Positions 2,430 to 27,703 of a stretch of 64,000 nt of DNA are shown in pieces. The position numbers were made by a program, and so were the translations under genes. Numbering within the stretch: position 1 is the stretch's first letter; the number at the start of each line of letters is the position of its first letter. This stretch comes from Angiostrongylus vasorum (Eukaryota; Nematoda; Chromadorea; Rhabditida; Metastrongylidae). Location of the stretch: positions 350,745-414,744 of the forward strand of contig JADANN010000009.1 of NCBI GenBank assembly GCA_018806985.1, read 5' to 3'. Under the pieces are notes generated by a model. It made no database searches, had not been told where the DNA came from, and saw only the letters and a program-made list of their open reading frames with translations.

Positions 2430-3501
2430 TCAACGGGCGGTCATCTGGGGTTGTTCACGGTCCTGACGGTTTTTGGAGCTGAACATGGCGATACACGACG
2501 AGAACCAGTCGTTTCGGAAGCAATTGGCCCGACATTGAGCACGCAGATTAGGAGCCTCATGCGAGAACATCTCGTGGCAAAGCAGACATATTTGATCCAT
2601 GACATGGTGAACAGGCGGCACACGATGGACCTGGAAAAGCTCTCAGGTACGATTCGCTTCAGTATCGACTTCGTTTAATGCGTAATTAATACCTCAGTTT
2701 ATCGATAACCTTAAATTGGATTACAACCACAACGATGCTGAGATATTCGCAAAACTTGGTCCCCGGGCCAGATCGAGCCACGATTCCCCCTTTCTGGAGA
2801 CTCGCGTACTGCACACTGCACCACTGAGGCCCTTTGTCTTTCTCTCAGCTAGTTTTCTACATAGCGCTGCCATCATCAATTGCCCGTCAGATCAGATTGT
2901 TATAAAAATTTTATTGTAGCTGACGTTTTAATACATAGTCTTGTTCAGAACTGTAACGGTTAGAGTAGGGTGTCCAAAGCAATGTTTGTCCTTGTGATAT
3001 CACTCTTCAATCTTGCATCGAGTCGAATCGAGTGTTGTGGAGTACTCTTAGGTCCTGGTAGGCTCCCCTCGTTAAGTAAATGATCACGGTGAGAATTTTT
3101 GTACGAGTCTTTCTTCTTTAACATATTCGGTGGGAGTGCCCGTGGGTTCTTTGCCGGCTATACCATTAAACAGGTTCACTGTTTACTCAGCATCCAGATG
3201 AAAGTGTTAGATTCTTCAGACTAAGGTGGATCCGATGGAGCATGTGCACTGCGATATAGACGGCCACTTAGGTACAGCTTAGCCACAATTAGAGTGACAA
3301 AGCGTTAAGGGTGTGACAGTATGCATTCAAATAGTCAGGATTTCACTAAGATTGACAAATATTCCCTATTTTTGTTTTTTTTTAAAGCATTAACTAACTT
3401 TGCATCTTTTCTCCTGCGTTTCCGTTTTAACCAATTCTTCAGTGATGACTGGATCGAGTAGCACGAACAATATAAGTATAAGGAGAGAAAAAACGTTCCA
3501 T
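2430..3501 (-). CDS. CHH/ITP-family neuropeptide precursor, two exons, one frameshift
   Basis: Members of the crustacean hyperglycemic hormone / ion transport peptide superfamily are secreted hormones held by three disulfides. Exon 1 (3399-3501) follows an acceptor, attctattcag, three bases before the ATG. It encodes a hydrophobic signal peptide (SLLILILFVLLD), a short spacer with a dibasic KR, and the first Cys, and ends at a GTTAGT donor. Exon 2 (2430-2630) follows gcttttccag and runs to TGA. Both sides of the splice are phase 0. The joined cysteine pattern is C-x15-C-x2-C-x14-C-x3-C-x8-C; the family norm is the same except x12 in the third gap. The FRNDWFSSC end also fits the family. The intron of 768 bases carries a family D repeat. 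Oddity: the ATG is out of frame with the signal peptide because of a run of six T; five T would restore one frame. This could be a sequencing error, a real mutation, or a start in another exon. The predicted precursor is about 100 residues. Confidence 0.72.
2730..2905 (+). repeat. Dispersed repeat family D, copy 1
   Basis: This copy shares the block GATGCTGAGATATTTGCAAA and its downstream GTCAGATCAGAT part with copies near 6812, 21385, 21592, 24805 and 29945. It lies in the intron of the neuropeptide gene. It has no coding capacity and its class is unknown. Confidence 0.55.
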
Positions 3502-3855
3502 TATCTGAATAGAATGTAGTGATCTTTAAAGAAGAGAAAAATAGGATAGTATCCGCTATTTTATCTTTTTATGAGAATTGAAAGCGGTGAAGAACATGAA
3601 GGATAACGGTATAGCTATGAACCAGTAAATTCTTAAAATGAAGCAGCACTTAAGGCAATAGATCGAACACTGAACACTTCCGATCATCATTTTGACTAGG
3701 TGGCAGGTGGGGGATTCACCACAGAGAAATGACGACTATGTGCTGAGAACCAGGTGAATTAGGAGAGTGGACCACCTGTCACTGCTACACCACTTTGTTT
3801 AAATCCACTTTGTATTGCATAGCTACTCCTAACTGTTGTTATTGTTACTGTTGAG

Positions 3856-4137
3856 GCGTGTATAGCACAATGGTCAGAAGTGCCCTGCGACATGCACGTG
3901 TTCTTTGGTTCTATTCCGCGCCCCCCGGCTCACTAACCCATCCATCTCTCTGATGTCGGTAAATTGGCACCAGACTTGCTTGGAAGGGCAGTAGCACTGA
4001 CCCCACACATCAATAGGCCACCTTAAGTCACTGTCTAAGACAGAGATGCATTCAGTCACCTCTAACGATGCTTGATGAAGTCGAATGCACGACGCACCCC
4101 CTTACGGATTGATTAACACCGAGTGCTTTATCCTTTA
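3856..4137 (+). repeat. SINE-1 (tRNA-derived SINE-like), copy 1
   Basis: This is a degraded copy of a repeat of about 280 bases found many times in the window. It opens with a tRNA-like head (TAGCACAATGGTCAG as A box, GGTTCTATTCC as B box). A conserved body follows (AAATTGGCACCAGACTTG and GATGCATTCAGTCACCTC) and it ends in TTTATCCTTT. It is non-coding and presumably was transcribed by RNA polymerase III. Confidence 0.65.
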
Positions 4138-4377
4138 TTATGTATTGTTATTATTAGCAATTATTGTTATTGTTGTTCCACGTTGTTTTCAGTTGAAATT
4201 ATTGAAACAGTTGGATCTCACAGCCAACGGAAGTTTCTTCGAAATTTGAAGATCAGTTAGCCATAAGTCCAAAGTTATAATTTCTTTTTCTCCTGTTACT
4301 TAACTTATTTTCACTTGACTTCGGCGTGAATAAATCACTTTCAATTATTCAGCTTCTATGAGGTTGTTATATAAATT

Positions 4378-25812: not shown

Positions 25813-27703
25813 TCAGAAATTGATTCGAAGGTACGAGGCCAGGTCGCGTGTGACCTCTGGGCATTCATCCCTATTATTCATTGTAGGGTTTTTGGCATTT
25901 ATCCAAATAGACTCAAGAAGTTTTCGCGCTAGTGTTTTTAGTCTCCTGTGCAAGGATATTGACTTTTACTTCAAAATCGTCTCCACTATGCTTTTTGTAT
26001 CCTATGCGTGTCTAGTGGGGTACTTTGTTTCGTTTGCCATCTAGATGTTCTTTTATACGGATACATAAAGGTCTGCTCGTTTCGCCAATATATTCATCTA
26101 CTCAATTATTACAAGAGATCAGGTATATCGTACCTGAACTCATGCAATCATCGTCCCTGCCATAAGGCCAAATTAGGCAAGTTGTTGTTTCACATAGACG
26201 GTCGTAGAGGCGGTTACCAACTAACTGACGACGTAGAGTAGCCGGTGGTATTTCAACTATCACTACCGATTCCTCTAGACCTGCCCTTCTTAAGCATCGT
26301 TCAATAGCTACGCTTACTTCATCGCTAATAAAGGGCAACATAAACGGTACTTTCTTTTGGCCAAGTGTTTCGCTTGGGCGCGTCGCTCTCCTTCTAAACC
26401 TATCTCGTGCGGTAACTATTTCGTGGCCATTGGAGATGGCTATTTGCCGAGCCAAGTCGCGCGATTCTTCCTGTAGTTCCCCGGTTGTGCACACAGAGGT
26501 GGCTGTTCGAAACATGTTTCTCACAAGCGCCCTCTTTGTGTGCGAACGGTGGAAGGAGAGGAAATGAACGATGATGTTCTTGTTACTTGGTTTTCGGTAC
26601 CACTTTGTCACATGACCGCTACTTGATAAGTTGATTTGAACGTTGAGAAACGGAAGCCAGGTCTCTTTCGGTTTCTCACGGGTGAATTTGATATACTCAG
26701 ACTGCTCATTCAATAATTCAAAGCATTTGTCCATCTCCTCTTGAGTAGAAAAGATGACAAAACATTCATCTATATATCTGCAGTAGAGTAGCGGCCGGAG
26801 ATCGACGACCGTGGCTTCTATTTTAGACATGAACGCAATGGCGAGAGTTGGTGCCAACCGCTGCCACATTGGCAGCCCTCTAATTTGTGCGCAATAGTTC
26901 CCAAACCATCTGAAAACCGAGCAGTTTAGGCACTCTTTCAGGAGAACCATAAGCTGCTGAATAGACAAGCCATGCATGTGTATTCCTCCTTCATGTATAA
27001 CAAGAAGTCCGTGGATGGCTTGCATTGTGGAGTCATTTGACACGATGGTGTAGAGCGCGGAAACGTCGAATGACTCCATCACGCATGCGTTGTTAGGAGA
27101 CGCGTTACGTAGATGTTCTAGGAGCATTTGGGTGTTCGCGAGGTGAGCTGGAATGTGGCTAAGCACTTGGTTAAGTATTCGGCCTAGAAACCATGTTATT
27201 CTATCCGTTGGCCCGTCTCCATAGCTGATAATGGGTCTAACCTTGTAGGAGAGTGGATTGGTAAACGTGAGATCATCAGCTGATACTAACTTATGTGTTT
27301 TAATAAGTAAGTATAAAACGGGACATGTTGGTCGATCTACTTTCAAATGCGAAATAACGGATGGTTTTAAGCCCGCCGCCTTTGCTACTGTGACCCATTA
27401 ATTGCTAAATTTTCGGTATTACCTTTTGTATTCCTTTTCAGACGATGGGTGATAAAGGGTGACATTACTAAGATGTTCCTCCGTTATCTTAGCATCTAAC
27501 TGCTGAGGAATAATTACGAACTCTCCGCCTTTATCACTAACAGATAGTCTAATGGTCCTTGAATTTATTAATTTTTCTAATTTCTCGCATACCACATTTT
27601 TGCGCAGCTGTGAGGTTAAAGATACTCTTTCTATCGTGATAGTGGACAATGACTTTGAGAACGTCGTCCGAAAACATGCGAAACTTTGCATCAATTTCGA
27701 CAT
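25813..27703 (-). pseudogene. Penelope-like reverse transcriptase and GIY-YIG endonuclease
   Basis: Reverse transcriptase of the Penelope class, which primes at exposed DNA ends and is related to telomerase. Minus strand: SDKGGEFVIIPQ (about 27540), then two in-frame stops near 27419 and 27398. The frame then stays open from about 27395 to 26105 with RPTCPVLYLLIKTHKL, PIISYGDGPTDRI, ESFDVSALYT, the catalytic box RYIDECFVIF (D-D replaced by D-E) and FLNVQINLSS. The GIY-YIG domain begins SSGTIYLISCNN and is cut by a TGA at 26102. It continues in frame as VDEYIGETSRPLCIRIKEHL. After one more stop and a frameshift near 25925, the tail NPTMNNRDECPEVTRDLASY ends at 25813. Premature stops show it is inactive, though the 414-codon open run suggests recent decay. 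Confidence 0.8.

Follow-up and report, generated by a model that had tools for sequence, protein, structure and literature searches.

On the minus strand of a 64,000-nucleotide stretch of the Angiostrongylus vasorum genome (contig JADANN010000009.1, positions 350,745 to 414,744 of assembly GCA_018806985.1; hereafter the window), we characterize a two-exon gene that belongs, on the evidence of its sequence, to the CHH/ITP family of peptide hormones. It is very probably a functional, ordinary nematode CHH/ITP hormone gene, whose out-of-frame ATG most likely reflects a single-base error in the assembly. Genes of this kind are known and already annotated in sister worms, and what is mildly new is the intron of this one and the set of three genes to which it belongs. 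The elements of the gene, in window coordinates, are as follows.

3502..3510, minus strand: ATTCAG, a splice-acceptor-like sequence, and a 3-base leader before the ATG
3499..3501, minus strand: likely start codon (ATG), shifted by one base from the exon-1 frame
3488..3493, minus strand: six consecutive T separating the ATG from the peptide frame, a possible site of the frame disagreement
3399..3500, minus strand: exon 1, read in the same frame as exon 2; its translation holds a signal-peptide-like stretch, a propeptide and Cys1
2631..3398, minus strand: phase-0 intron of 768 bases between Cys1 and Cys2, predicted from its GT/AG ends
2430..2630, minus strand: exon 2, an open frame of 66 amino acids closed by a stop; it encodes the predicted mature peptide, starting just after CK, with cysteines 2 to 6

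Both exons are genuine. They share one phase, so that joining them gives a hydrophobic stretch, the residues EKRCK and then a 66-residue end with five further cysteines, spaced C-x15-C-x2-C-x14-C-x3-C-x8-C. The initial annotation had proposed two exons joining in phase to give six cysteines, and the frames, the GT/AG ends (donor GTTAGT after AAA, acceptor TTTTCCAG before G) and this spacing all bear it out. The arrangement of cysteines in exon 2 is found once in the window, and 40 first-order Markov simulations of the window did not produce it at all. Exon 2 is uninterrupted from Cys2 to Cys6, and the phase-2 intron after Cys4 that is typical of the family is thus absent from the window gene.

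The assignment to the CHH/ITP family, also made initially and there left to a profile search, follows from the Pfam score, the strongylid relatives and sequence similarity to CHH and MIH chains of known structure. Exon 2 alone matches the Pfam family PF01147 (CHH/MIH/GIH) at 43.2 bits (E = 3.7e-11, cut-off 25 bits), and the spliced peptide scores 42 bits. When the 280-Mb genome was searched in six frames, with introns ignored, there were four places with E values of at most 1, one of them above the cut-off; no control genome had a place above it (0/14). The weak places L010 to L012 (17.5–21.1 bits, each with a stop) carry no family motif on either strand of the matched stretches and were set aside as noise. 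Solved structures matched by sequence include a CHH, an MIH and a CHH-like peptide, as well as U1-agatoxin-Ta1a at E = 0.33.

A protein search with the spliced peptide returned eight proteins, the best being an unnamed protein of Angiostrongylus costaricensis (P0002), which is 95% identical over all 83 residues; the remaining seven are strongylid proteins with 77–92% identity over 43–93% of the query, and these close relatives span eight strongylid species. When seven of these proteins were aligned and used as the query, 65 proteins were found, several of them in unnamed rows, and every row that names an organism is from a nematode; a third search, using paralogues, raised the set of relatives to 87. 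An A. cantonensis protein (P0067) matches this genome at 90 of 95 residues, and the inexact matches of both P0002 and P0067 point to a third species of Angiostrongylus or a near relative. The expectation that ordinary gene finders could miss the gene did not hold, as gene finders in sister species found it and several of their products were left unnamed. The structure of P0002 predicted from 55 aligned rows is all-helical, with a predicted local distance difference test score (pLDDT) of 70 and a predicted template-modelling score (pTM) of 0.49, and CHH and MIH are among its top structural matches, but these matches are weak. This prediction replaced a poor one from seven strongylid rows (pLDDT 56, pTM 0.26).

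The third cysteine gap of the window peptide had been described as departing from a CHH/ITP norm of 12. We find instead that a gap of 14 is, among the sequences retrieved, the nematode norm, because all 75 relatives with a full core carry x14 there, together with x8 in the last gap; the pattern used held x2 and x3 constant and allowed 9 to 18 residues in the third gap and 6 to 10 in the last. The other 12 of the 87 relatives are fragments or incomplete and lack a full core, and Cys1 stands at x15 in 69 relatives. In the structure-match alignments, the aligned CHH and MIH chains are two residues shorter than the window peptide at the third gap. A second feature of the initial annotation, the KR site, survives in part: a KR pair does exist before Cys1, but it is conserved as KR only in A. 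costaricensis. Among the six relatives with an N-terminus, P0002 alone has KR directly before Cys1, and the other five have KQ, MK, KK, KS and KK, so that the pair is dibasic in three of six overall. Four of the six (P0003 to P0006) instead carry a KR with D or E after it, placed four to seven residues ahead of Cys1; at that position KT is found in both the window gene and P0002, and KA in Trichostrongylus colubriformis.

By analogy with the hormones of this family, the two-exon gene would yield a precursor that enters the secretory pathway through the signal peptide of exon 1, forms three disulfides as it folds into a small helical peptide, and is released as a hormone. The hydrophobic stretch of exon 1 resembles a signal peptide; it has no in-frame ATG here, and is in frame with one in P0002.

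We now turn to the frame disagreement. The ATG is off by one base and the run of six T lies at 3488–3493, both as first reported, and the phase of exon 1 meets a stop at 3503–3501 and has no ATG downstream in frame. The ATTCAG before the ATG is probably a trans- or cis-splice acceptor. The intact relative P0002 starts MERFSLLILILFVLLDPVIT (MERFSLL) and continues unbroken; the window exon-1 frame has FSLLILILFVLLDPVIT in common with it, and exon 1 matches residues 4 to 36 of P0002 at 94%. Since the match begins at residue 4, the frame disagreement sits before the fourth residue, and the sister species is predicted to carry an intact form of the gene.

As a control for slips in the assembly, near-identical histone loci of the same assembly were compared pairwise. 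Three pairs (L037/L044, L038/L039 and L041/L042) hold 14 substitutions against 41 indels in 10,039 aligned bases; 39 of the 41 indels are of one base, and 34 of these 39 fall in stretches of at least three identical letters. A fourth pair (L040/L043, with 65 substitutions and 12 indels over 1,433 aligned bases) was too diverged and was kept out of these sums. Single-base indels that outnumber substitutions are what unpolished long reads produce. Coding frames are broken in this way too. The eight best-scoring histone H3 copies (L036 to L043) are open to the end, and the ninth, L044, differs from L037 by no substitution and one gap, in an A run, over 412 aligned bases, and meets a stop at codon 65. 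The tenth, L066 (C108:3450110–3450488), is broken, with the gene split between two frames; it was picked because two overlapping pieces lay in different frames, and two broken copies out of ten is therefore a biased rate. The ten copies exclude L045 and the divergent copies L046 and L047. Other true genes of this assembly may likewise look frame-broken through single-base indels.

The intact P0002 and the wealth of single-base indels at near-identical loci lead us to prefer an assembly slip, and the one-base homopolymer error first suggested is favored on the same grounds; the out-of-frame ATG most likely stems from the assembly and not from a lesion of the worm's own gene. The main rival, which we judge unlikely, is a real frameshift, recent or polymorphic, that would make the gene a null allele or a young pseudogene in this worm. 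As assembled, the gene lacks an in-frame ATG, and the scored places of the genome include no second copy of the window gene, both as such a lesion would have it. However, the gene retains its splice sites, its six cysteines and about 95% of its residues, and the assembly has many single-base indels elsewhere. That the disagreement is both real and common in the species, so that the lungworm is losing, or is polymorphic for the loss of, this hormone, is a shade less probable still. If the loss were real, it would remove a hormone that strongylids otherwise conserve strongly, leaving only a tandem pair of paralogues with the classic intron.

It is also conceivable, but very unlikely, that the gene works as assembled by way of another start, either a non-ATG codon or an exon further upstream that is spliced to a site within exon 1. 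An AG inside exon 1 (CGATCCAG) makes such an upstream exon formally possible; against this, from residue 4 onward the A. costaricensis protein and exon 1 are collinear. Finally, CHH-superfamily peptides have been recruited as toxins in some arthropods, and the product could in principle be a venom-like or host-directed relative rather than a hormone, which we regard as the most improbable of these readings.

P0002 and the relatives from Dictyocaulus, Haemonchus, Strongylus, Teladorsagia, Trichostrongylus and Cooperia have the same architecture and cysteine spacing, and in a nine-row alignment the strongylid relatives are 68–95% identical to the window peptide. This peptide has the six cysteines and PF01147 in common with insect ITP and crustacean CHH/MIH, and solved CHH and MIH chains match it by sequence; by inspection, its C-terminus has no amidation signal, unlike theirs, and its intron differs from theirs as described in the sections of a 2010 survey used here (PMC2841656). 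According to the same sections, Caenorhabditis has two nematode CHH-family genes, ITP1 (ZC168.2) and ITP2 (C05E11.6), two other nematodes have one each, and ITP2 lacks the classic intron after Cys4, as the window gene does.

The genome holds three family members. Besides the window gene, searches with P0002, P0048, P0043 and P0078 as queries located two further CHH-family genes in tandem on contig C465, from 433441 to about 449.6 kb (L025, L026 and L030).

Gene B, C465: exon 1 at 433441–433643 and exon 2 from 433876, with a 232-base phase-2 intron in the codon after Cys4
Gene C, C465: exon 1 at 442222–442421 and exon 2 from about 449492, with a phase-2 intron of about 7.07 kb after Cys4

Both genes have the cysteine spacing of the window gene and differ from it in carrying the phase-2 intron after Cys4. 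The peptide of gene B has 102 residues and scores 29.1 bits against PF01147, above the cut-off, and exon 1 of gene C, searched alone, had no hit to PF01147 at E = 1 or below. Placing exon 2 of gene C close downstream of exon 1 misfitted the spacing, and the exon near C465:449.5 kb was taken. Relatives of genes B and C occur in other strongylids, among them a Necator pair with consecutive gene numbers.

We built a tree of 43 cores, 40 from the 87 relatives and three from this genome, in which many forks are unresolved. It sets a window clade of seven rows (support 100/99) apart from a clade of 16 rows that holds genes B and C (100/100); the rows of C. briggsae and C. auriculariae fall outside the window clade, and the deep forks are unresolved. 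As given in the sections of the 2010 survey used here (PMC2841656), the phase-2 intron after Cys4 is held to be ancestral, with Caenorhabditis ITP2 and Trichinella the only exceptions; since these genes also do without it, the intron does not define membership of the family. The Cooperia gene model P0008 departs from the family just before VHRSP, which is the exon boundary of the window gene, and this hints that the phase-0 intron between Cys1 and Cys2 is shared. Strongylid worms carry three kinds of CHH/ITP gene, one with an intron unlike the presumed ancestral one. The alignment search also returned five rows from Steinernema carpocapsae, so that several genes per species are not peculiar to strongylids.

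Within the literature searched, nematode CHH genes are the subject of PMC2841656 only, and the main text of a 2022 survey of parasite neuropeptide-like genes (PMC8764417) contains none of the terms CHH, hyperglycemic, ion transport, C05E11 and ZC168. An excerpt of PMC4256158 reports that knock-down of C05E11.6 (ITP2) in C. elegans delays reproductive senescence and lengthens mean life by 10%, a phenotype by which the CHH/ITP family may merit study in worms, and ZC168.2 appears in an excerpt of PMC12055002 as a stress marker of the ATF-6 branch. Beyond the CHH/ITP family the significance of the window gene is little.

The intron of the window gene bears a repeat, as had been noted, and the repeat has matches elsewhere in the genome.

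2722..2890, no strand: interspersed repeat inside the intron, with at least 54 other matching stretches in the genome at 74–100% identity

On several contigs the matching stretches form inverted pairs. An Rfam search at 2722–2890 matched no family, and a tRNA-derived origin, raised by a faint tRNA likeness seen by eye, was dropped because Rfam gave it no support; two sub-threshold Rfam matches at 4100–4176 lie outside the repeat and were taken as chance. Elsewhere in the window, nine other long frames were scanned and none had a Pfam match up to E = 0.01, and a 414-amino-acid open frame at 26102–27346 on the minus strand matches the reverse transcriptase family RVT_1 at 24.9 bits, below the cut-off of 29.6.
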